DNA of 40,259 bases from a virus, in the IMG/VR virus record IMGVR_UViG_3300020194_000761, positions 1-40,259 of that record; one strand, given 5' to 3'. Under the pieces are notes generated by a model. It saw only the letters and a list, made by a program, of their open reading frames with translations, ran no database searches and was not told the DNA's origin. The first letter of the stretch is position 1. The number at the start of each line of letters is the position of its first letter. The translations under genes and the position numbers were made by a program. This document shows, one piece after another, positions 5,855 to 38,645 of the stretch.

Positions 5855-8143
5855 TTACTCCGTTTCTTTATATTGAAGGTTAACTAGATTCTCGTGTCTA
5901 GTAGAACTTTCATTTGTTAAAAAGTATGATGCTCTAATTGAGTCATACGGTTTTTGGTTTTTATAGACATCCTTTACACGATACCAATTTAATTGATCGG
6001 CAAGAGATGCTTGGGTGTATAGTTTATATCCTTGAACATATGACATTAAAACTAGTGTCACCCTTTGATCGCCGGTAAAACCACCACCTTCTTCTAACAT
6101 CTCTTCTTGGTTTTCCAAGTTTTGTTGTAAAGAAGAAGTGGACAATGAAGCAACGGCGGTTTCTGCTCGCGCTACAGTGGTTTGTTCTTCGACTGATGGT
6201 GGTGCAATGTTAAAATTGCTATAGTCTGGTTGTACGCCACTTAAAAATTGTCCTAAACTTTGTCCTGTTGACAGTGCCTCAGTAAAATTATCCTCAAAAT
6301 TCATTTCTGTAGAACTTGTTGTTAGTGTTTCCACTTGTTCTTGTTGACTTTCACTCGAACTAGTGACTACATTGTTAGTAGAGGTCGACGATGTCTCAAA
6401 AACTGCTTCAGATTCACCAAAAAGTCCCATTTCTGTGCTCATTCCGTCGGTAAATAGTGCGTTTTCTTGCAAGTTTTGATCGCTTACTAATTTCTCAGTG
6501 TCTGACAGTACATTCAAAACAATATCTAACACTTTGGCGTCTAATTTATCAACTTTGCGCTCTTCTTTCTCTTCTTTTGTTGCTGGCTTTTCCTCAGGGC
6601 CCGCATCTTCGTCCTCGATGAGTAATTCTTCCTCTTTTTTACTCACCTCATCTTCTTTTGCGTCATTTTTCTCTATTTTTACACTTTTCTGCGGCAAAAT
6701 TACATCAGGTTCCACACTTTCTACAAGTTCGTCTACGTTAAGAGGCTCTGACATTGGTTTTTCTTCAGGCGATACCGATATTTGTACTTCCATGTCCTTT
6801 GTATCGTTCTCAGTAGTAGGGTTTGTTTGTTGTACTGGCGGTCCTTGTTGTTGGGAAGACTGTTCAGTGTAATCTTCCTCGGGCATTCCCATATCAACAC
6901 CGGTGTCCTGTCCGTCGTCAATTTGTGCTCCTGTATCCGGCTCGCTCATTTTACCATAGGAAGTATCTTCTGTTTGTCCGTCATATCCTTTATCCTGTCC
7001 GTCGTCTTTATAAGGATCAGAAAAGGAGTCATCTTTAACAGAATTTAAAGCTTCCTCTTGTGCCTCTTTTTCTAACTTAGCCAACTCCTCTTGTAAGTCC
7101 TTTAATGCCTTAGCAGAATCGTAACCTTCGCACCCTGTATCATATAAAGGATCAGCTGTGCAAGCCTCTTCGTATTGTTTCTGGGCATATGCCTCTTCGT
7201 AACCCGGACATTGCGGATCATAAAGAGTGTTCATCTCACATTGTTGTGAAAAATATGCTTCAGCATAACCCGGACATTGTGAATCGTATAATGGATTTGC
7301 AGAACACTGCTGATTAAAATACGCATCTTCATATCCTGGACATTGATAATCATACAACGGGTTGCTATTACATTGTTGCGTAAAGTAGGCATCGGCATAC
7401 CCTGAACATTGAGAATCATACAAGGGATCTGACTGACATTGTGCCTCAAAGGAAGGTTGAGTAGCAGCCGCCCAGTTTTGTAGATCTCCGTCGTAATATT
7501 CTCCTACCATTGACTCAAAGATAGATGTTACATCTTCTTGCTGATCCAACGGCACTTCTTGACTAATCTCTCCCCAATACCCAACGGTTATATTTGAGTA
7601 ATTGATATTGACGTCATCGTAGGTACTTGAGAATGTTCCGTCCTTGTTAATATCTAAAGAGAAGGTATTTAAATTTGGCCCGTTTTCTCTTTGGCTATCG
7701 CTTCCATATATTGTATAAAATTCAGCAATATCAATCCATTCGTACTTCATGGAGTCGTCTGTGCCTGTTGTAACATACCTAGTCCCTTCAATACCTACAA
7801 GGTCTGTCCATAAAGGAGCTATGTAGTAACTCATAATCTGAGGATTTGGAAAATAGTTGTAACTGTTTATGGCTTCTTGTGGATTCCACTGGGAACCTAT
7901 ACAATAGGTATTTGTAGGATCACAACCTATAGCAGCAAATGGATCGTAGAATCCTACGATGCCATTATCGTACATTACAGTGTGCGTGAATATCTTTCCG
8001 TAAAAAGGAAAGGCAAAATTCAAAGGCACTAGAGCATATTGATCATCGCTGATATTATGCTCTGTTACAGTCTGTGCGTTAGAGTAGAAGGAGCAGAGCA
8101 AGAGCCCCACCGCCAACAAACCACTTCTTAGTATCGTTTTCAT
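5855..8143 (-). CDS. Large secreted repeat protein with nidogen-like N-terminal region
   Basis: 762 residues with a clear signal peptide (cleavage likely after SNA, residue 23). Residues about 35-190 read like a nidogen-type extracellular domain (FPFYGKIF, YDNGIVGFY, YYIAPLWTDL). Residues 235-345 hold five copies of a 22-residue Cys repeat, CxxxPLYDxxCPGY. A long, acidic, low-complexity stretch rich in Glu, Lys, Ser and Gln follows to about 640, then a helical C-terminal part. The Cys pairs suggest disulfides in the periplasm or outside the cell. The start overlaps the end of the upstream secreted gene by 65 bp. It may be a surface adhesin, a virion decoration or a cell-surface modifier. Function not established. 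Confidence 0.8.
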   Translation of the reverse strand: MKTILRSGLLAVGLLLCSFYSNAQTVTEHNISDDQYALVPLNFAFPFYGKIFTHTVMYDNGIVGFYDPFAAIGCDPTNTYCIGSQWNPQEAINSYNYFPNPQIMSYYIAPLWTDLVGIEGTRYVTTGTDDSMKYEWIDIAEFYTIYGSDSQRENGPNLNTFSLDINKDGTFSSTYDDVNINYSNITVGYWGEISQEVPLDQQEDVTSIFESMVGEYYDGDLQNWAAATQPSFEAQCQSDPLYDSQCSGYADAYFTQQCNSNPLYDYQCPGYEDAYFNQQCSANPLYDSQCPGYAEAYFSQQCEMNTLYDPQCPGYEEAYAQKQYEEACTADPLYDTGCEGYDSAKALKDLQEELAKLEKEAQEEALNSVKDDSFSDPYKDDGQDKGYDGQTEDTSYGKMSEPDTGAQIDDGQDTGVDMGMPEEDYTEQSSQQQGPPVQQTNPTTENDTKDMEVQISVSPEEKPMSEPLNVDELVESVEPDVILPQKSVKIEKNDAKEDEVSKKEEELLIEDEDAGPEEKPATKEEKEERKVDKLDAKVLDIVLNVLSDTEKLVSDQNLQENALFTDGMSTEMGLFGESEAVFETSSTSTNNVVTSSSESQQEQVETLTTSSTEMNFEDNFTEALSTGQSLGQFLSGVQPDYSNFNIAPPSVEEQTTVARAETAVASLSTSSLQQNLENQEEMLEEGGGFTGDQRVTLVLMSYVQGYKLYTQASLADQLNWYRVKDVYKNQKPYDSIRASYFLTNESSTRHENLVNLQYKETE
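7109..7441 (-). repeat. 66-bp-period coding repeats (22-residue Cys repeats)
   Basis: Five in-frame copies of a 22-residue unit with the pattern CxxxPLYDxxCPGYxxAYFxQQ. The first three are the most alike; the fourth has an insertion after YEEAY and the fifth is degenerate (TGCEGY). Copies differ at many third positions, so the repeat is old or under protein-level selection rather than a fresh expansion. Confidence 0.9.
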
Positions 8144-9089
8144 TGTCGTCCTTCATTTTAACTTCATCCAAAGCATTGTCTGGAACAAGTTCAGGATTGG
8201 CTAGCCAAAGTTTTTGAGCTTCTGCACCGATCTTACCTTCGAAAGGACAAGGGGTACCTGCCATCAACATGGCTTTGAATACTCTTTCATCTTGACACAT
8301 AGCTGAAACTGCGGCAACTCTCATTCCCATATCATATAGAGTTTTAGAAAGTTTAATACGTTCACAGTTCATATCCCTAACGGACTTGCCGCCTGATAAA
8401 CCCAACACTTGAGTTTGTATCGCGGCACTGACACCTGTTGTACATAAGTCTTGAGAATAAGAACTACCAATACTCGGTGCGATTGCGCTAGGAGGGGGCG
8501 ACTTTATTTCCTGTACAATCTTTTGAGTTGAATTAGTCTCATTTACATTAATGTTCTCATTTTTGTTGTTATTGTTGTTGGTGTTATTTGTTGTAACATC
8601 AGAAGTAGAGTTACTCGTACTATTGGAAGTAGAGTTGCTAGTGGTGTTGTTGGTGTTAGTATTTGTATTATTGTTCGTGTTGTTATTAGTATTCGTATTG
8701 TTGCTGGTACTATTAACATTCTGATTTACATTGGTATTGTTGTTGTTAGTATTTGTATTGTTACTCGTGCTGTTTACCGTACTAGTATTAACATTGGTAT
8801 TGTTGTTAGTATTCGTGTTGGTATTGTTGCTCGTAGATGTACCAACATAATTGGTGTTATTATTATTGGTATTAGTATTCGTGTTAACATTATTACTAGT
8901 TGATGTGCTAGTATTATTGTTGGTATTGTTATTAGTGTTCGTTGCGGTACTGGTAGCGTTTGAGGTACTGTTTACCTCGGATGTGCTATTTGTGTTCACG
9001 TTTGTTGTCGTGTCTGTACTGTCCTGTGCATATACGTTTCCAACCATCATAAAAAGAACTGCTAATGAACTTGTGATTAGCTTATTCAT
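8079..9089 (-). CDS. Secreted Asn/Thr/Ser-rich protein with C-terminal membrane anchor
   Basis: 336 residues. The signal peptide ends at about VYA-QD (residue 22). Residues 25-190 are almost pure Asn, Thr and Ser, then Val. A folded domain follows (about 195-310) with four Cys (CTTG, MNCERI, MCQDE, CPFEG), likely disulfide-bonded. The protein ends in a charged KKW and a hydrophobic helix (FVGGGALALLLLL), so it should be tethered to a membrane. AGGAG lies 8 bases before the ATG, and a TATAAATA box sits about 85 bp upstream. It overlaps the next secreted gene by 65 bp. A stalk-like surface protein is the best guess. Confidence 0.8.
   Translation of the reverse strand: MNKLITSSLAVLFMMVGNVYAQDSTDTTTNVNTNSTSEVNSTSNATSTATNTNNNTNNNTSTSTSNNVNTNTNTNNNNTNYVGTSTSNNTNTNTNNNTNVNTSTVNSTSNNTNTNNNNTNVNQNVNSTSNNTNTNNNTNNNTNTNTNNTTSNSTSNSTSNSTSDVTTNNTNNNNNKNENINVNETNSTQKIVQEIKSPPPSAIAPSIGSSYSQDLCTTGVSAAIQTQVLGLSGGKSVRDMNCERIKLSKTLYDMGMRVAAVSAMCQDERVFKAMLMAGTPCPFEGKIGAEAQKLWLANPELVPDNALDEVKMKDDNENDTKKWFVGGGALALLLLL
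8520..9014 (-). repeat. Low-complexity AAY/ACN/AGY tract encoding poly-(Asn/Thr/Ser)
   Basis: About 165 codons almost entirely of Asn, Thr and Ser, read on the minus strand; on the plus strand this appears as runs of GTT, ATT and GTA. Copy-number slippage here would lengthen or shorten the stalk while keeping the frame. Confidence 0.9.
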
Positions 9090-25634: not shown

Positions 25635-26293
25635 AATTGTTTGAACATAATATTGTTGAGATACCTCAACTAAAACAAATTAACACAGACGCCGGAAGGA
25701 GATATGAAACACCTTCTGGTACGCTGTACCCGTCAATTACGACAATCTTATCTCATAAGTCTAAGCCCTTTATTGATGCTTGGCGTAAACGAGTAGGAGC
25801 AGATGTTGCTAACAAGATTAGCAATAAAGCCTCAACTCGAGGGACAAAGATTCACCAATTGTGCGAAGACATTCTTAATAATAAATTGACAGACGATTCA
25901 AGTCTCAATTATATTGATAAAGAAATGTTCCAAAAGTTTCGTCCTTTGTTAGACGACATAGGTGTGATTAATAGTATTGAATCCAAGCTATATTCAGATC
26001 ATCTACGTCTTGCAGGACAGGTTGACTGCATTGCCGAGTATAAAGGCAAAGTGTCAATTATTGATTTCAAAACTTCTATGAAACGTAAAACTAGAAGTAT
26101 GTGTGAAAACTATTTTATACAATGCTGTGCTTATGCTATTATGTTTGAGGAGCGTACAGGTATTCCTGTATCTCAGCTAGTAATACTTATGGCAGTCGAG
26201 GGTGAAGAGCCCATCGTATTTTGTGAGAAGAGAGACGACTATGTTGCCAAACTTCTAGAAGCAAGAGACGACTACGAAGCGGCGTATAAATAA
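25616..26293 (+). CDS. PD-(D/E)XK exonuclease (RecB/Cas4-like)
   Basis: 225 residues. The N-terminal SITTILSHKSKPFIDAW and RGTKIHQLCEDIL (about 75-87) are the motif I region with its His. IESKLYSDHLRLAGQVDCIAEYKGKVSIIDFKTS (about 115-150) gives the E, GQxD and D-x-K triad of PD-(D/E)XK nucleases, then a conserved helix with YFIQCCAYAIMF (QxxxY type). It probably degrades host or phage DNA ends. The ATG at 25616 overlaps the previous gene by 19 bp. Its last codons and stop, TAT AAA TAA, include the late-type box in front of the tmRNA. Confidence 0.9.
   Translation: MDRSSLKLFEHNIVEIPQLKQINTDAGRRYETPSGTLYPSITTILSHKSKPFIDAWRKRVGADVANKISNKASTRGTKIHQLCEDILNNKLTDDSSLNYIDKEMFQKFRPLLDDIGVINSIESKLYSDHLRLAGQVDCIAEYKGKVSIIDFKTSMKRKTRSMCENYFIQCCAYAIMFEERTGIPVSQLVILMAVEGEEPIVFCEKRDDYVAKLLEARDDYEAAYK
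26285..26292 (+). promoter_or_regulatory. Putative late promoter in front of the tmRNA
   Basis: TATAAATA spans the last two codons and stop of the nuclease gene. With T4 spacing +1 would be near 26298, at the expected 5' end of the tmRNA acceptor piece. The box could be fortuitous, because it also encodes Tyr-Lys-stop. Confidence 0.45.
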
Positions 26294-26297
26294 AATG

Positions 26298-26510
26298 CCT
26301 GTTGAGGGTTGTAGTAAAACGAGGCTGGACGAGGGTTCGATTCCCTCCAGCTCCACCATAAGCACATTGCGGCAATGTGTTTATGATGGGGCTGTTAAGG
26401 TATCGACAGTCAAGAAAATAAGCAACAAGAGGGTCGTCAGAGTAGACGTAAAAACTATTTTAATCTAAATGCAAACGCAAACGATTACGCATTAGCGGCA
26501 TAAGCTAATT
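26298..26510 (+). ncRNA. ssrA: Circularly permuted (two-piece) tmRNA
   Basis: The 3' acceptor domain comes first: the T-arm GAGGG-TTCGATT-CCCTC and the acceptor strand CAGCTCC plus ACCA, ending at 26358. A spacer of about 29 bases follows, with the hairpin CACATTG/CAATGTG. The 5' domain then begins at GGGGCTG (26388), which pairs with CAGCTCC over 7 bp including one G-U. The tag reads GCA AAC GCA AAC GAT TAC GCA TTA GCG GCA TAA (26471-26503), peptide ANANDYALAA. The stop lies in the loop of an ATTAGC/GCTAAT hairpin, as in other tmRNAs. It frees stalled ribosomes and tags their products. Outer ends are approximate: the 5' end assumes the late promoter, and the 3' end may extend to about 26546. 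Confidence 0.92.
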
Positions 26511-26546
26511 GGGGTATGGGCTCCACCTTATAATCCAAAGGGCCCA
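26511..26546 (+). promoter_or_regulatory. Candidate RNA pseudoknot, copy 1
   Basis: GGGGT (26511-26515) pairs with ACCTT (26525-26529) using two G-U pairs, while TGGGC (26517-26521) in its loop pairs with GCCCA (26542-26546), an H-type pseudoknot. It shares GGTATGGGC(T/A)CCACCTTA and GGGCCCA with copy 2 at 26820. It lies after the tmRNA tag hairpin and about 20 bases before the AAGGAG of the gene at 26580. It could be a pseudoknot at the end of the tmRNA coding piece or a leader control element. Confidence 0.55.
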
Positions 26547-26579
26547 CTTTTGACACACAACACACACAAGGAGATAAAT

Positions 26580-26810
26580 ATGTCAAATCCATATGAACTA
26601 AGATTCAACATGCTAATGGAAGCAAAGTTAATGCTCGTAGAAGAGTATCACGCAAAGAAAGAACAACTCATAGACAAATACATGGCATTGAAAGATGCCG
26701 GTGAGTCGGTTGAGTATCCTACCTTACCCGAATATCCTACTTTTGAGGATACTCAGCGGTTATGTAACCAAATGAATTCTTTTGTAAGTAATTCTGGTGG
26801 TAAACACTAA
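26580..26810 (+). CDS. Conserved small phage protein
   Basis: 76 residues from the ATG at 26580 with AAGGAG upstream. An N-terminal NPYELRFNMLMEAKLMLVEEY helix resembles a small protein seen in many marine T4-like phages; the C-terminal half has a Pro-rich YPTLPEYPTF stretch and a final helix. No Cys or membrane segment. Function unknown. It lies between the two similar pseudoknot leaders. Confidence 0.75.
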   Translation: MSNPYELRFNMLMEAKLMLVEEYHAKKEQLIDKYMALKDAGESVEYPTLPEYPTFEDTQRLCNQMNSFVSNSGGKH

Positions 26811-30310: not shown

Positions 30311-30889
30311 ATGATAATAATCTCAATGCCACGATGTGGTGGAACTAAATACTGCCAAGACTTGTCCAATACAACAGGACTTCCTTATAAGGGAGACATG
30401 GACATTTACAACCTTCCCGAATTAGGATCGGTTTGGCACCATATTAAAACTACACACCACGAAACTAATACTGGCGGATTTATTACAATCGACGATACTG
30501 TAGACACGGTATCTAACTATAAGGACAACATCGTTCTAATTAACAAAAACTTTACACCCATGTTACCATTCGGCGATGTGTATTTAATTAGAAAGAACCT
30601 TAGAAACATCTTTACAAGTTTAACCGAGTATTGGCTACGAATAGGTGGGGGAGAGTTTCCTACCATATTTAATGAAAAGAACTTGAAAGAGATGGCAGTT
30701 CAGTGTAAAATATACATTGAATATTTAAACAACAATAATATTGAACCGGTTTATTACGAAGATTATTTTAACGATCATCCTCACAATACACCAATACTAG
30801 ATAACCACAAAGCTAAGGAAGCATATTTACATTTTATAGATGAGACTATGTCTCAATTAGGATTAAGCGCTCTTAGCTCAACTGGATAG
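30311..30889 (+). CDS. P-loop sulfotransferase-like protein
   Basis: 192 residues. MIIISMPRCGGTKYCQDL resembles the PAPS-binding P-loop (often PRSGTT) of sulfotransferases, with CGGT in place of SGTT. DVYLIRKNLRNIFTSLTEYW (about 89-108) matches the 3'-phosphate motif with an Arg and a Ser. EPVYYEDYF is a typical late strand. Sulfation or another nucleotide-dependent transfer is possible. It starts 3 bp after the gp32 terminator with no ribosome binding site, and its last seven codons and stop lie in the tRNA-Arg gene. No promoter is evident. Confidence 0.65.
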   Translation: MIIISMPRCGGTKYCQDLSNTTGLPYKGDMDIYNLPELGSVWHHIKTTHHETNTGGFITIDDTVDTVSNYKDNIVLINKNFTPMLPFGDVYLIRKNLRNIFTSLTEYWLRIGGGEFPTIFNEKNLKEMAVQCKIYIEYLNNNNIEPVYYEDYFNDHPHNTPILDNHKAKEAYLHFIDETMSQLGLSALSSTG

Positions 30890-30943
30890 AGCAACGGCCT
30901 TCTAAGCCGTAGGTTGCAGGTTCGAGTCCTGCAGGGCGCGCCA
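30867..30943 (+). tRNA. tRNA-Arg (anticodon UCU)
   Basis: 77 bases folding as a complete cloverleaf. Acceptor GCGCTCT/AGGGCGC, D-arm GCTC/GAGC, anticodon arm ACGGC/GCCGT with loop CTTCTAA (anticodon TCT), T-arm GCAGG/CCTGC with loop TTCGAGT, discriminator G, and CCA encoded in the DNA. It reads AGA, a very common Arg codon in this AT-rich genome. The preceding gene ends inside its D-arm. Confidence 0.97.
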
Positions 30944-31544: not shown

Positions 31545-31838
31545 ATGAAAAAAGTACAACCAAAACAAATGGACTCTGTAAGGGAAACAATCGACAAACT
31601 CGACAGACTTCTTGTAGAATTAATTGGCCAACGTATAGCTCAAATAGAACAAGCAGCCTTTATTAAAGGGGATAGGAATCTTATTGTTGATGAATGGCGT
31701 ATCGAAGACGTTATTACAAAGGTAAGAGCCGCTGCTGAAACCCACTATGTTAATCCAAATTTAGTAGAAAAAGTTTGGAGAGTATTAATTGACGAATCTA
31801 TCAAACATGAATTTGATGTTTACGATTCTAGCAATTAA
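31545..31838 (+). CDS. Chorismate mutase-like (AroQ-fold) protein
   Basis: 97 residues, all helical, matching the AroQ family across its length. Aligned by eye with E. coli chorismate mutase, R11 is R13 here, R28 is R30, K39 is K41, R51 is R52, and Q88 is E89. E52 has no equivalent, as in PchB-type isochorismate-pyruvate lyases. The helix 1 pattern VRETIDKLDRLLVELIGQR is typical. It could convert chorismate to prephenate or isochorismate to salicylate, or have lost catalysis. It is convergent with the tail operon, sharing TTAA at the stops. Start without a strong ribosome binding site. Confidence 0.75.
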   Translation: MKKVQPKQMDSVRETIDKLDRLLVELIGQRIAQIEQAAFIKGDRNLIVDEWRIEDVITKVRAAAETHYVNPNLVEKVWRVLIDESIKHEFDVYDSSN

Positions 31839-34663
31839 CCTCGATATCTACGATCCTGATAACGTTCAATTGTATTAGTATTTGGCCTAGGAGTAGGTGC
31901 ATTGGCTACGACAACTTTAGGTTCTTTACTAGCGCCACCACCACTATTATTTGTAACATTGTTAATCACAGGAGCCGGTGCGTTTTGTGACGCTGGCATA
32001 TTCTCTAGAGCAGTGCCTGTAGGTACAGGTTGTCCCGGAGCAGCAGTAGCTATCATTGTTCCTTGTTCTAATTGATCGGCTGACTCAAACTTGTCTTCGG
32101 GCTTGCCGAATATCCGATCGTTTTCTGATCGGAGAGTCTTCTCTAGTCCTGTTTCAGCGCTATCATCTGACAGGAAAGGGTGATCGGTGTGAGCACCTGA
32201 GTTCGGATACAGCATCTGCATAGATTTTTCCTGTAACTCTTCAGGTACATCCTGTCCGTTGATTTTAGTTACCTTGCCCATCTTTACAGTAGCTTCCACT
32301 TTACCATCACTTGTATCAATACCCATCTCTTGAGCGATCTGTTCAACTACAGCGGTCTTATGATCACCTTCTTTTTTTCTTCGCTCAATTTGGTTTTGTC
32401 TTCTGTTAGAGGCACCACCGGCAAGTCCTTCTGCTTGTTCAGGATTAGAAGTATCAGTGGTTTCTAGTTTGGATAAGTCTACATTAGCACCTTCTGCTTG
32501 TAGTTTTTGTATTGCCGCATCTTTGTTTTGTATGGCCTTTACAAGTCCCGCATTCTTCATTGCTGCCTTATCATTATCAGAGTATTCATCTTCTGATTTG
32601 TCACCTAACAGTGCTTGATAATTATCTTCAGCTTGTTTCTCAATCTCTGCTCTTAACTCTGGGTTTACTTCTTCAATTTTATCTAAAGCTACTTGGGCTG
32701 CCTCATTTGATTCTGCAATCTCGCCCGGATCGACGGGTATTGCATCTGCTAAAGCCTCGCCTGCTTTACCACCTAACCAACTACCACCAAAGTATCCTAA
32801 AGCACCACCTATAATACCACCAATAGCTGTACCAACAACAGGAACAACAGAGCCAATAGCTGCACCTGCGGTTGCCCCTGCTATAGCTCCACCAGCACCA
32901 CCGACACCTGAACCAATAGCCTCACCTTTTTGTGATTGTGCCTCTTCCGCGGAGATTTCTAAATTCTCCATTTTATTTTCGGCGGACATGACACCTGTTA
33001 CTGCTTCATAAGCACCCATGCCCACACCCAATGCGGCGCCGCCTAAGCGCCCAACACTGCTCAAGCCGCCCCTCATTACACCACCGCCGAGTAATCCTTT
33101 ACCTGCTCCTTTTACGGCATTGCCGATCCTACCCATTCTGCTAGGTTTCCGGCCGCCTTTATCGCCGCCAAAGAATCCGCCGCCGCCACCACCACCATCA
33201 CCGCCACCCATACCACCGTTGGCAGCAACATCTTCTAAAATGTCTTTGATGTCTTCTAGAAGTTCTACTTGTTTTTGACCTGTAGTCTCTTTATCTATTC
33301 CACTTTTAAATGTTCCATCGCCTGGCTTAGTGCTGATTGCTCTAGCTTGGGCTACCTTACTAGTGTTGTTATTAGTAGTATTCTCGGTAGTCTTTTTTGT
33401 AATCTTATTATTGTCTTCTTCTGTAGCAGAACCTAGTGCTTGACTAGTGTTATTAGATGTTTTTATAGAGTCTGTTTTTATTTTTACAGTCTCAGCTTTA
33501 ATTTCTTTTGTTCCACCTTCTATAGTCTTGGTTTGAATCTCTTTACTAGACTCTTTTTCTATAGTAGGCTCTTTTTCTATAGTAGGCTCTTTTTCCTTAG
33601 AAGCGTCTTTAGTTTTCTTAGACTCAGCGGGAGATTTAACAGCAACTTCATCTTCGCCAATTAACTGTAGACCCTCTGCACCAACGGCAGCTGCCAAACC
33701 TTTGGCTTGGTCTTCTTTGGCAATTTCCATACGAACATTTTTAGCTTGCTGTGCGTCGGCGGCATTATCGCCTGTTCCCAATACCTTAGATGCTAGGTTG
33801 CTCATTATACCACCACCGCCAGATAAGCCGCCGGTATTGGCATCACCGAATAAACGTGTTGGACTGAATGCTTGTTTTACTGCTGTTAATCCTGTAGCAC
33901 CTTGATCTATATTAAGAGCTTCTTTTATTCTACTACCGGATCTTAAATCTTTTTTAACATTGTCTAAACCCAATGCCTGGTTTATCTTGTCTTTATTGTC
34001 GCCTGCTTTTGCTTCTAGTCTAGCAACTTGTTTAGATATTTCATTTTTGGCTTTCTCTGCATCCTTACCTTTGAGGTCTTGCGCATTAGCCATAAGTTCG
34101 ACAAGTTTCTTTAGCTCTACTTGTGTTTCATCGCCTTCTTTTTCAAATATTTCTTGTAGGGTACCTGCATTTTCGCCAATATTTTTAGATAAACCTGCAG
34201 ATGCTTTAGCTGCTCCAAACCCTAAGGTACTTGTATTCTCTTCCATTGCGCCAATAGTTTTACCTTTTCTAATACTATTAGCTAGGGACGCTACTCTAGA
34301 TTCACTATCATCGAACCTTTCTTCAGTAGCATATTGTCCAGATGTTTCGTCTCTGAATTTTTCTCTGCCTTGCTTGTCGGTTTCCTTTCTTACTAATGAT
34401 TCACCGCCAATTTTAAGTCTACGCATTTGGTTGTTGGCATTGCCGCGAACGGATCTAGCTCGGACATCTTTTAAGTCTTCGTTCGTCGTATCTGATAACA
34501 CTTCAGTAGAGAGATTTCTTGTTTTGTCATAAGACTGCATACCCTCTGATCTAGAATCTTCTAGCGCAGATGCCGAGCCACTTTGTTTGAGCTCGTTATC
34601 CTTCATGGACTCTTCTCGCAAGTCCTTTTTACGGGTGTCTTTTAAATCGTCTCTTTCAGCCAT
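31835..34663 (-). CDS. Tape-measure / tail hub protein candidate
   Basis: 942 residues. The N-terminal half is long, charged and helical (many Lys, Glu, Ala, with tandem EPTIEK units). A Gly/Ala-rich hydrophobic stretch around 500-680 (GAIAGATAGAAIGSVVPVVGTAIGGIIGGALGYFGG) would span membranes or pack in the tail tube. The C-terminus is polar with a Pro/Asn-rich end. Size, composition and position directly downstream of gp26/gp51 point to the tail-length ruler, whose T4 counterpart is the 590-residue gp29, but no sequence match to gp29 is seen. It starts 5 bp after the gp51 frame ends. Confidence 0.65.
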   Translation of the reverse strand: MAERDDLKDTRKKDLREESMKDNELKQSGSASALEDSRSEGMQSYDKTRNLSTEVLSDTTNEDLKDVRARSVRGNANNQMRRLKIGGESLVRKETDKQGREKFRDETSGQYATEERFDDSESRVASLANSIRKGKTIGAMEENTSTLGFGAAKASAGLSKNIGENAGTLQEIFEKEGDETQVELKKLVELMANAQDLKGKDAEKAKNEISKQVARLEAKAGDNKDKINQALGLDNVKKDLRSGSRIKEALNIDQGATGLTAVKQAFSPTRLFGDANTGGLSGGGGIMSNLASKVLGTGDNAADAQQAKNVRMEIAKEDQAKGLAAAVGAEGLQLIGEDEVAVKSPAESKKTKDASKEKEPTIEKEPTIEKESSKEIQTKTIEGGTKEIKAETVKIKTDSIKTSNNTSQALGSATEEDNNKITKKTTENTTNNNTSKVAQARAISTKPGDGTFKSGIDKETTGQKQVELLEDIKDILEDVAANGGMGGGDGGGGGGGFFGGDKGGRKPSRMGRIGNAVKGAGKGLLGGGVMRGGLSSVGRLGGAALGVGMGAYEAVTGVMSAENKMENLEISAEEAQSQKGEAIGSGVGGAGGAIAGATAGAAIGSVVPVVGTAIGGIIGGALGYFGGSWLGGKAGEALADAIPVDPGEIAESNEAAQVALDKIEEVNPELRAEIEKQAEDNYQALLGDKSEDEYSDNDKAAMKNAGLVKAIQNKDAAIQKLQAEGANVDLSKLETTDTSNPEQAEGLAGGASNRRQNQIERRKKEGDHKTAVVEQIAQEMGIDTSDGKVEATVKMGKVTKINGQDVPEELQEKSMQMLYPNSGAHTDHPFLSDDSAETGLEKTLRSENDRIFGKPEDKFESADQLEQGTMIATAAPGQPVPTGTALENMPASQNAPAPVINNVTNNSGGGASKEPKVVVANAPTPRPNTNTIERYQDRRYRG
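33553..33595 (-). repeat. Short tandem repeat in the tape-measure gene
   Basis: About 2.3 copies of an 18-bp unit encoding EPTIEK in the charged part of the 942-residue protein. It shows slippage-type expansion in a flexible linker. Confidence 0.7.
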
Positions 34664-34668
34664 CGCTT

Positions 34669-34857
34669 TTAACCTTGTTGTTTAGCCTTCTCAGCTTTTT
34701 TCTTTAAATGTGTTATTAACATAGCAACGTAAACTTCTCTTTCCCATGGCATCATATTTTCTAGTTCCGTCAAACTGTAATGATGTTCTTGCATTAACAA
34801 AAAATTAGTCTTGTAATAATTCTCAAGACTATCCTGAGAAAGAGTTAGGCGAAAAAA
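34669..34857 (-). CDS. 51: gp51-like extension read by -1 frameshift from gp26
   Basis: A frame of 60 residues that lies -1 to gp26, starting at the T TTT TTC heptamer and ending at 34669. The stretch HHYSLTELENMMPWEREVYVAMLITHL resembles gp51-type hub proteins of marine T4-like phages. There is no ATG, GTG or ribosome binding site at the head of the frame; the first ATG is at 34794 and would remove the first 19 residues. Fused to gp26 it gives a 289-residue protein. Without the shift only a 41-residue piece could be made. A gp26 to gp26-51 ratio would parallel the G/GT tail-assembly chaperones placed just upstream of the tape measure in other phages. Confidence 0.7.
   Translation of the reverse strand, partial: FFRLTLSQDSLENYYKTNFLLMQEHHYSLTELENMMPWEREVYVAMLITHLKKKAEKAKQQG
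34820..34857 (-). promoter_or_regulatory. Programmed -1 frameshift signal (slippery site plus stem-loop)
   Basis: On the minus strand T TTT TTC (34857-34851) is in the gp26 frame as CAT TTT TTC, three codons before the stop. About 10 bases downstream TTCTCA (34840-34835) pairs with TGAGAA (34825-34820), a 6-bp stem with a 9-base loop. Slippery heptamer, frame and stem together fit a classical -1 signal, although the stem is modest. Confidence 0.7.
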
Positions 34858-35537
34858 TGTTCGTATCCATTGATATTAACACTGTTCTGCCCTTCACATT
34901 TAGGACACTTGAAATCAATCGTGTGCCCGAGCAAAGGAACATTCTCAAAAAATTCTTTAACTTTTGAGAGTGTATTTACTGGCATATTATCTATATATTC
35001 AATTAACTCTTTATAATCTATATCCTTTGCTTCCCAAACTTCATCTTCACTATAGATGCATTCAACGCATTCTAAGATGAGTTCGTCGTCTTTTAGACTT
35101 TCCGCTTTGCCCATTGTTTTGGCGGACGGGTATTTTAAAACAATACCGTTCTTATCGTCAATTTCAATCTTTCTATTAGCTTTTTCTTCTAGTCCAACAA
35201 GTTTGAAATCGTTCAAGTTTACCTGCCATGGCAAATTAGCAGAACAATGTCCACAAATAAGAGTGAACTCTTGTAACTCACTTACTGACTTAGATCTAAG
35301 TTGTAAGAAGATCCACTGTAAATCAAACATAGGAATCTCTTCCACATCCAATTCGCCAAAGGAACAGTTACTTACAACCTGTTGACAAGCTGCCACCATT
35401 TCAGAGGCATCTTCAGCCTCGCTAGCAAGTGTTAATATTTTTTCTTCTTTTACAAGAAAAGGCCTAAATTTCATCTCTTTTTTAGATGAAGGTATTTCCA
35501 ACTTAAATGTTGGCGTTTCAATTGTGGGTAATCCCAT
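34845..35537 (-). CDS. 26: gp26-like baseplate hub / tail-assembly protein
   Basis: 230 residues. It resembles the T4_baseplate (gp26) family of marine T4-like phages: MKFRPFLVKEEKIL near the N-terminus, the CxxC pair CGHC (95-98), a central KYPSAKTMGKAESLKDDELILECV block and the second CPKC pair (211-214). The two Cys pairs could bind one zinc. In T4 the hub protein gp26 acts with gp51 in hub assembly. The gene ends in a slippery site and overlaps the gp51 frame. A TAATAAATAAA leader with AGGAG precedes the ATG. Confidence 0.85.
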   Translation of the reverse strand: MGLPTIETPTFKLEIPSSKKEMKFRPFLVKEEKILTLASEAEDASEMVAACQQVVSNCSFGELDVEEIPMFDLQWIFLQLRSKSVSELQEFTLICGHCSANLPWQVNLNDFKLVGLEEKANRKIEIDDKNGIVLKYPSAKTMGKAESLKDDELILECVECIYSEDEVWEAKDIDYKELIEYIDNMPVNTLSKVKEFFENVPLLGHTIDFKCPKCEGQNSVNINGYEHFFA

Positions 35538-35559: not shown

Positions 35560-36090
35560 TCAAAGTCGCTCCCAATACGTGGAAGCCATTGTTATTGAAC
35601 ACCTAATTGCTGATGTGTTTGCCGATGATACGGGAATCAAACTCAAAAGTTTAGGCATTGTTTCATAAAATTTCCATCCAGCTAATACTGAATCGTCTAC
35701 AGCCAAAGAGTATATAGATATTGATCCGTATGTATCTTCTGGATATGCAGTTTCTTTAGACACAGGATCAGAGCAAAGAAAGGCCCAGTCTTCAAACGCT
35801 GTTCTAATGCCCCAGTTTTGGTCTGCTAAGAAAGTGAACACCGCTTCTGCACCTAAGAACTCTAAGTTTTGTGTTCTATACTCTGTCCAAGCACCAATTC
35901 TAAAAGGCAGGTTTGTTGCAACCAATCCAGGTATTTGTGCTTCTTCACATAGTATTGAAGTTGTTCTAGCGACGTCAGGTGGTAAGGAAAGACTGCCAGG
36001 AAAGTTGACAACCACCTCAAACCTATCGGAACGAGGAGTATGTGAACTTCTAACTGTAGCTAGAAAATTACCAAAATTATTTTGTGCCAT
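35560..36090 (-). CDS. T4 gp19-like tail-tube-fold protein
   Basis: 176 residues. The beta-rich pattern RSDRFEVVVNFPGSLSLP, CEEAQIPGLVATNLPFRIGAWTEYRTQNLEF and FTFLADQNWGIRTAFEDWA, then YGSISIYSL and YWERL at the end, fits the T4 gp19 tail-tube fold (ring-forming monomer). It is either the tail tube or a tube-related initiator such as gp54. It starts in a 1-bp overlap with the previous gene and lies 22 bp before gp26, consistent with a tail cluster. Confidence 0.75.
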   Translation of the reverse strand: MAQNNFGNFLATVRSSHTPRSDRFEVVVNFPGSLSLPPDVARTTSILCEEAQIPGLVATNLPFRIGAWTEYRTQNLEFLGAEAVFTFLADQNWGIRTAFEDWAFLCSDPVSKETAYPEDTYGSISIYSLAVDDSVLAGWKFYETMPKLLSLIPVSSANTSAIRCSITMASTYWERL

Positions 36091-37093: not shown

Positions 37094-37350
37094 TCCTCTA
37101 TTATAGGTTTTAGTTTTTTGGTGTGTAAATCTTCTAACATTTTAATAATGGGTTGCCCGTCGGTTAGTAGAAATAAATCCATATCTTCTTTTGTCTGTGC
37201 TACAAATGTCATTCTGATTCTCACAGGATCTGTTTGATCCGGGAAAAATTCTATATCATCAGTAAACTGTGCCGTCTTTAAGACATCTTCTATAGCATTA
37301 ACATCAAGAGCAAAGTTATCTCTGGTAAAGCTTAATCGCCAAGTGTACAC
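37087..37350 (-). CDS. Small hypothetical protein
   Basis: 87 residues, acidic, with alternating beta strands and helices (MYTWRLSFTRDNFALDV, RIRMTFVAQTKEDMDLF). It overlaps the AMP-ligase gene by 19 bp and gp4 by 7 bp, so it is translated within the same minus-strand operon. No motif recognised. A virion or chaperone role is possible from position only. Confidence 0.7.
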   Translation of the reverse strand: MYTWRLSFTRDNFALDVNAIEDVLKTAQFTDDIEFFPDQTDPVRIRMTFVAQTKEDMDLFLLTDGQPIIKMLEDLHTKKLKPIIEEW

Positions 37351-38645
37351 AAATATCCTCTCAATTGATCCATATTAACTTTGGTTTCTGTAGTAAAATC
37401 TTTCTTGTTTAATGTCGTAATAGTTTTAAATATATTTGTATTTATTCTATCTGTATTGTAGCTAACAGTAGGCTCCCATAGAACTAAGTGTAAGTCTTCT
37501 CCTACAATGTCAAACTCTCCAGCATAATGTTTACTTACAAAATTATCTAAAACGTGTTTTTTATCTCTACCCATATGTATCCAGGTGTTTCCTTTTTTAT
37601 TTAATTGATCGCCTAACAATCTTTTATTGGGCCATAGTTCGCAGTTAACAACTACTCTGTCATCTACAAGTTCCATGGTATAAAAGTCATCTGGTTGACA
37701 ACCTAAACTGCTCTTTGTCCAATCACTATCTTTTGTAACATGATTGACTAGAAGTGGAATGCCGGTGTCGATAGAACCGAAGTGAGAAATGAATTCAATA
37801 TTATTTTCCTCACACAATCCTACAAAATAATCTGGCACTGTAAATCCACTCATGTTAATTAATAAGGTTGTATCTAATTTGGGTATTGCTTTTAAGAATA
37901 TATCCATACACCGCATATTGATCATCATCATTTTAGTTGGTTGCCATTTAACTATTTCATCTGCAAACCAACCTGAAATATGTTCAACTGTCATTGGATT
38001 CATTACAATGTTTCTGTGATTGTCAGATGCCATTAGGCTAGGAAACAAATGAGTTAATATGCTACTAGCGTGGTGCATATTTTTACTGTGAACAACTTTA
38101 TCATCTTTTACAAACTTGAACACATCTATATTTCTTTTGGATATTGTATAAACCTCATTCTGCGTAAACATCACTGGCTTAGAATCACTTGTTGTGCCTG
38201 AGGTCGAGCCTAATAGATAAGGAGTATGTAATTCGTTAAATTTATCTTCACATTCTTCATAATAATTTAAAATATCGTCTTCGTGTAAAACATTCTCACT
38301 ATAACGCTCTACCATAATGTGGTGAACAGGATGAGATTTTAACCAATCACATTCTACTGTAAACTTAACGGGTCCAAACAAACCTAACTTTGTTTTGTGT
38401 ATTGTTTGTGGGTTTACAGGGAAATCTAATATGAAAAGGATCAATCCTAATTCAGCGGCTGCAAAAGACAACGCAACTTGATTAACGTTAACTTCCATAA
38501 TTGATATAGCAAGTTTATCGCCTTTCTCAGCGTTATACTTATGTTTTAAGAGGTGTTTCCAGCGATTTGTTAGACTAATAATATCAGATTTGGTGTATCC
38601 ATCATAATCAAGCGAATCATTAATAATATTTGTTGTGAGCATCAA
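37332..38645 (-). CDS. AMP-binding (ANL superfamily) acyl/aryl ligase
   Basis: 437 residues. LLGSTSGTTSDSKPVMFTQ (about 144-162) is the A3 P-loop motif; FISHFGSIDTGIPLL matches the A5 Y/F-G-x-T/S-E-like region, HMGRDKKHV the A8 hinge, and TTETKVNMDQLRGYL near the C-terminus the A10 motif with the catalytic Lys. ANL enzymes make acyl- or aryl-adenylates and often CoA thioesters. It is shorter than typical (about 500-550) and has weak A5 residues, so substrate range or activity may differ. It is the first gene of the tail operon behind a late promoter, an odd place for such an enzyme. Confidence 0.78.
   Translation of the reverse strand: MMLTTNIINDSLDYDGYTKSDIISLTNRWKHLLKHKYNAEKGDKLAISIMEVNVNQVALSFAAAELGLILFILDFPVNPQTIHKTKLGLFGPVKFTVECDWLKSHPVHHIMVERYSENVLHEDDILNYYEECEDKFNELHTPYLLGSTSGTTSDSKPVMFTQNEVYTISKRNIDVFKFVKDDKVVHSKNMHHASSILTHLFPSLMASDNHRNIVMNPMTVEHISGWFADEIVKWQPTKMMMINMRCMDIFLKAIPKLDTTLLINMSGFTVPDYFVGLCEENNIEFISHFGSIDTGIPLLVNHVTKDSDWTKSSLGCQPDDFYTMELVDDRVVVNCELWPNKRLLGDQLNKKGNTWIHMGRDKKHVLDNFVSKHYAGEFDIVGEDLHLVLWEPTVSYNTDRINTNIFKTITTLNKKDFTTETKVNMDQLRGYLCTLGD

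Follow-up and report, generated by a model that had tools for sequence, protein, structure and literature searches.

Probable programmed -1 frameshifting between gp26 and a gp51-type domain beside a tape-measure-like gene

The window analysed here, a stretch of viral DNA of 40,259 nt taken at its full length, carries on its minus strand a run of tail genes in which two reading frames overlap. The first frame, gp26 (34845..35537; 230 codons plus stop), matches PF12322 (E 7.8e-53) and phrog_150 (E 1.2e-55) and would encode the short form of a tail assembly chaperone (TAC-N). Its 3' end reads CAT TTT TTC GCC TAA, which places a slippery heptamer, T_TTT_TTC (34851..34857), in phase for a tandem -1 slip. 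Past the slip, the -1 frame (34669..34851; 60 codons plus stop) reads RLTLSQDSLENYYKTNFLLMQEHHYSLTELENMMPWEREVYV... to a stop at 34669 and encodes a putative gp51-type C-terminal domain (TAC-C), which matches phrog_634, the gp51 family (E 7.7e-27); it also aligns with the C-terminal part of phrog_150 (E 3.4e-06), and with no Pfam family at E 0.001. The predicted fusion is 289 residues long (229 + 60). A hairpin that is a candidate stimulator (34820..34840) begins 10 nt 3' of the heptamer. The preliminary description had placed an in-frame T TTT TTC heptamer at the end of gp26, had derived from a -1 slip the same 60 gp51-like codons and the same fusion length, and was correct in all of these, as in its coordinates and sequence; the stem-loop that it put about 10 bases downstream does exist at 34840-34820, but its stem has 9 bp, not 6, and closes on a 3-nt loop.

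Directly upstream of gp26 lies a gene for a tail-tube-like protein (35560..36090; phrog_45 'tail tube', E 9.4e-20), and directly downstream of the -1 frame a gene for a tape-measure-like protein of 942 residues (31835..34663), both also on the minus strand. The latter matches nine PHROG families, among which phrog_794 'tail length tape measure protein' (E 4.8e-12) ranks third, behind a family of unknown function (7.9e-16) and 'tail associated lysin' (3.5e-14); because of this rank and of the low complexity of the sequence, the identification is tentative. The order phrog_45, PF12322, phrog_634 and the tentative tape-measure gene, with two overlapping frames, is that of G/GT-type loci. The position just upstream of a tape-measure gene that had been claimed for the junction thus agrees as to order and is provisional as to the identity of the neighbour.

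Further genes were noted elsewhere in the window. On the minus strand, a gene for an AMP-binding enzyme (37332-38645; PF00501, E 3.3e-08) adjoins tail and head-closure genes, and an open reading frame of 336 residues (8079-9089) has, by eye, a long low-complexity stretch rich in Asn, Thr and Ser. The plus strand carries a tRNA-Arg with anticodon TCT (30867-30943), an apparently permuted tmRNA (26249-26594; RF01850, 113 bits; RF04321 tmRNA_permuted, 106 bits) with the tag peptide ANANDYALAA according to ARAGORN, and, between 11899 and 23355, among others, a fatty acid desaturase, a carbamoyltransferase and two radical SAM matches, one of them below the curated cut-off.

The AlphaFold2 model of gp26 has a mean pLDDT of 93.9, and Foldseek found no match to it in the PDB at E <= 0.001. 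When the model was compared with 716 chains by VIA-align, the best match, over residues 1-87 of the model, was YqbN (3klu; Z 6.3, rmsd 4.7 over 85 residues; runner-up, Z 2.9), which we take to be an XkdN-type prophage tail assembly chaperone; this likeness of a model to a structure is suggestive only, being below Z 8, where a match can mean a common arrangement. Foldseek against viral models gave 61 matches at E <= 0.001; of the top eight, five carry a name, in each case that of a gp26-type baseplate protein. The best hit of a PDB sequence search with a gp26 profile was a designed repeat protein (E 0.005), which was rejected. In the portions available of a review of T4, gp26 and gp51 are listed as hub assembly chaperones, and genetic work locating gp26 in the hub itself is cited as well (PMC3004832). 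That genetic work and the record of phage LIMEstone1, in which gp26 is a confirmed structural protein, call a purely chaperone role of gp26 into question.

In two T4-type phages, JS98 and 60AhydR15PP, gp51 consists of PF12322 and the C domain in one unbroken frame: its first ~200 residues are PF12322, like gp26, it ends in the C domain for which marine phages use the -1 frame, and it covers positions 13-282 of 282 in phrog_150. The product predicted from a frameshift in the window would therefore be collinear with the gp51 of these T4-type phages. The window record, which may be a fragment, has one PF12322 match only.

The junction was compared among 175 loci, comprising the window, 12 named phages and 162 IMG/VR loci, which were gathered because they resemble gp51 domains (in the case of KVP40, gp26), the heptamer never being a search criterion. 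The family scans drew on the best 80 of at least 600 candidate stretches and the best 80 of 140, and the phage records on the 60 listed of 853. The group thus sampled is wide and mostly marine, including S-PM2, P-HM1, KVP40 and HTVC008M. There are copies among the 175 (KVP40 and HTVC008M twice each, and two near-copies of the window, L014 and L015), and the distinct junctions number 133. Removal of loci more than 85% identical left a thinned set of 84, differing by at least 15% over 187 nt, and stricter thinning by junction identity left 33 loci at <=65% and 19 at <=60%. Kept outside the 175 were five more near-copies of the window (L002-L006), three short gp26 matches (L007-L009), three T4-type loci with separate genes (L013, L100, L101), eight loci of Ackermannviridae or similar phages (L102, L106, L108, L192-L196), Slicko01 (L107) and S-H68 (L197); two further entries (L001 and L191) are the window itself.

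T_TTT_TTN, in phase with gp26 and lying where gp26 and the -1 frame overlap, occurs in 175/175 loci, where the seventh base is C in 81, T in 84, A in 6 and G in 4; a slippery sequence conserved in the phase of the first frame and within the overlap is what a G/GT-type pair would have. The TTTTTTC whose conservation in marine relatives had been suggested as a check proves, in these loci, invariant in its six Ts and variable in its last base. All 84 thinned loci have the six Ts (seventh base 52 C, 25 T, 4 A, 3 G), the same motif being present at 15 of 19,777 other junctions within the thinned gp26 genes, and the heptamer persists in 33/33 and 19/19 of the more strictly thinned loci. It is also present in the five near-copies of the window kept outside the sample (5/5) and, as TTTTTTC, in S-H68. 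The loci are not independent trials, since they share ancestry; yet synonymous sites that were free to vary have not varied. The codon before the Ts ends in T in 84/84 thinned loci, 81 of these codons being for Ser, His, Asp or Asn, amino acids whose codons have T in third position in 52-73% of cases at other sites of gp26, and the first Phe codon is TTT in 84/84, as against 72% elsewhere in gp26. In seven loci the second codon is now Leu and the six Ts are retained, and in the HTVC008M group the run has been extended to eight.

The second frame of a G/GT-type pair has no start of its own, and the window conforms: from the upstream stop of its -1 frame as far as the 14th codon after the slip, there is no ATG, GTG or TTG, and the first candidate, a TTG at 34800, lies inside the conserved domain. 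The start-less head of the gp51-like frame that had been reported for the window is thereby borne out, and the expectation that relatives would share it holds for many of them: among the 84 thinned loci the same stretch lacks ATG in 58 and contains one somewhere in 26, and it lacks ATG, GTG and TTG alike in 37, the window included. The -1 frame opens no more than 12 nt upstream of the heptamer in 34/84. These counts bear on the alternative that the gp51 domain is made as a small protein of its own, translated by ribosomes that terminate at the gp26 stop and reinitiate nearby, which we consider improbable. Such reinitiation may occur in KVP40 and two Rhizobium phages, where a -1 ATG overlaps the gp26 stop, and in these lineages it may add to slipping or replace it; the alternative also accords with the annotation of gp51 as its own CDS in many phage records, others of which omit gp51. 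It does not account for the loci without a start codon, and it needs neither six invariant Ts nor a T-ending codon before them, and the two domains are fused in the two T4-type phages.

Upstream of the slip, a Shine-Dalgarno-like core is found in 47/84 thinned loci within a 13-base stretch whose end is 4 nt from the heptamer, compared with 391 of 4,143 control windows of gp26; the window has no such core upstream of its heptamer. Part of this excess is due to a near-invariant glycine. Gly at codon -4 is hardly shifted toward purine-ending codons (37/81, versus 259/630 elsewhere). Where codon -5 is Glu, it is GAG in 21 of 31 cases, versus 27% elsewhere in gp26 (Fisher 3e-6; 3e-5 for the loci left at <=65% identity), so that a GAGG core stands 10 nt upstream of the heptamer, and Glu-Gly is encoded as GAGGG in 21/31 at the site, versus 13/58 elsewhere. 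The core is a candidate stimulator in the lineages that have it. E. coli dnaX has a similar layout of recoding elements.

Downstream of the slip, the hairpin of the window folds, in a 58-nt stretch, at -12.0 kcal/mol (z -2.0 against shuffles, 7 of 200 of which are as good; z -3.9 against 80 synonymous resamplings). In 21 close relatives no pair of the 6-bp or the 9-bp form differs at both of its bases, 15 of the 21 have lost one C-G pair, and 78% of cells are paired, which is more than in any slid version and no more than in shuffles; with neither compensatory change nor pairing better than that of shuffles, a conserved hairpin was not supported. RNAalifold gave a different, weak structure (-2.2 kcal/mol; of its 14 pairs, one has both bases changed in some sequence), and Rfam gave nothing at the gathering threshold at the junction. 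Downstream structure as a class is enriched, though the stem-loop of the window is not a conserved element. Against synonymous resampling that keeps the -1 protein, the stretch 3' of the slip has a mean z of -1.15, with 25/84 loci below -2, versus +0.23 and 1/84 for a control stretch further downstream, and dinucleotide shuffles give means of -1.02 and -1.29, versus -0.23 and -0.24 in two control stretches. Lineages with and without the Shine-Dalgarno-like core do not differ in downstream structure (p 0.58). A strong hairpin is present in S-PM2 (L010:3011-3045; 14 bp, 7-nt loop, 9 nt 3' of the slip; z -7.3 for a 50-nt stretch). Since the hairpin of the window is not conserved in its relatives, such structure may be renewed rather than inherited.

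The enrichment of downstream structure also tells against slippage of RNA polymerase on the T run, in which an inserted base would yield the fusion from altered mRNA. The run of Ts itself, and its extension in the HTVC008M group, would suit this process, which is nevertheless very improbable: six Ts, all that the window has, are short for efficient transcriptional slippage, and the loci preserve six Ts in a single codon phase while the seventh base is free to vary, as fits tandem tRNA slippage. That a sequencing or assembly error, or decay of an in-frame fusion such as does exist in T4-type phages, has split one gene can be dismissed, the identical split being found in every one of the 175 loci and their 133 distinct junctions, those of S-PM2, P-HM1, KVP40 and HTVC008M among them.

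The invariant heptamer, the C domain without a start in the window and many relatives, the fused T4-type gene and the gene order make a programmed -1 frameshift, producing a tail assembly chaperone in short and long forms beside the tape-measure-like gene, by far the best reading of these sequences (probability about 0.9). Confidence in it is reduced by the tape-measure match, which is not the best of the nine, and by the two sources that treat gp26 as structural. We infer that most ribosomes at T_TTT_TTC would read one further codon and then TAA, releasing gp26 as TAC-N, and that a minority would slip back one base, both tRNAs re-pairing on TTT TTT, and read 60 more codons to make the 289-residue TAC-NC with its gp51-type C domain. 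The Shine-Dalgarno-like core and the downstream structure, where present, might raise the rate of slipping. If they act as lambda gpG/gpGT are described to do, TAC-N and TAC-NC alike would bind the tape-measure protein, and TAC-NC would recruit the tail tube subunit through its C domain.

A broader proposal is tentative, and we would put it somewhat short of even odds: that the marine T4-like gp26/gp51 junction is a tuned, dnaX-like cassette, composed of an invariant T_TTT_TTN, a Shine-Dalgarno-like stimulator ~8-11 nt upstream in roughly half of lineages and a changeable downstream hairpin; that the frameshifted state is the older one, from which a duplication and an in-frame fusion produced the separate T4 genes 26 and 51; and that Ackermannviridae reach the same domain by another route. 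In the eight loci of Ackermannviridae or similar phages, a C domain recognised by eye (L102 and L108 also being weak tblastn matches, E 4) apparently lies in the -1 frame after gp26; these loci have no T6 heptamer, their junctions being ATT TTC ATT TAA or similar, with TAATG in four, TAATT in two and TAATA in two. No C domain was seen by eye in Slicko01. The frameshift signal is conserved across a wide, mostly marine group of phages, and separate or missing gp51 annotations probably should become one joined CDS. The many natural variants of one slip site could serve to measure the effect of upstream and downstream elements on the proportions of short and long chaperone.

The abstract of the 2022 study by Vladimirov and colleagues is said to name genes 26 and 51, and reportedly describes frameshifting as conserved in several T4-like groups, T4's own not among them. 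According to the passages in which later papers cite it, it was in that study (Vladimirov, Gautam and Davidson, Virology 2022, 566:9-15) that T4-like phages had their tail assembly chaperones identified, and the TAC-N genes of these phages carry poly-T -1 signals (PMC12846349); some T4-like phages have instead one short gene and one fused long gene, as stated in an excerpt of another paper (PMC10885494). A 2016 review, in the part available, held the G-T frameshift to be conserved 'except T4' (PMC5009743), and predates this work. The statement in the preliminary description that nothing of the kind was known for gp26/gp51 is therefore very probably wrong, as far as these partial sources go, and the locus in the window is very probably a well-supported case of a described kind and not a new phenomenon. 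A partial literature search found no description of a gp26/gp51 frameshift in marine phages specifically, and one may exist.

The interpretation of the locus in the preliminary description as a frameshifted chaperone of G/GT type is, by contrast, supported by the invariant heptamer, the start-less C domain, the fused relatives and the gene order. Lambda gpG and gpGT, in the account available from the review (PMC5009743), are likewise a short chaperone and a long one made by a -1 frameshift, and act on the tape-measure protein, and the T4-like chaperones of Vladimirov et al., as cited, are likewise short and long forms. T4-type genes 26 and 51 have the same domains, JS98 gp26 being PF12322 alone and its gp51 PF12322 plus the C domain, but as two separate, divergently placed genes that need no frameshift. 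The Vandenendeviridae phage Adele, as described in part of its report, has the same arrangement as the window, with a poly-T -1 site ending TAC-N, followed by the C domain and then the tape measure, but belongs to another phage family and uses the site GTTTTT (PMC12846349).
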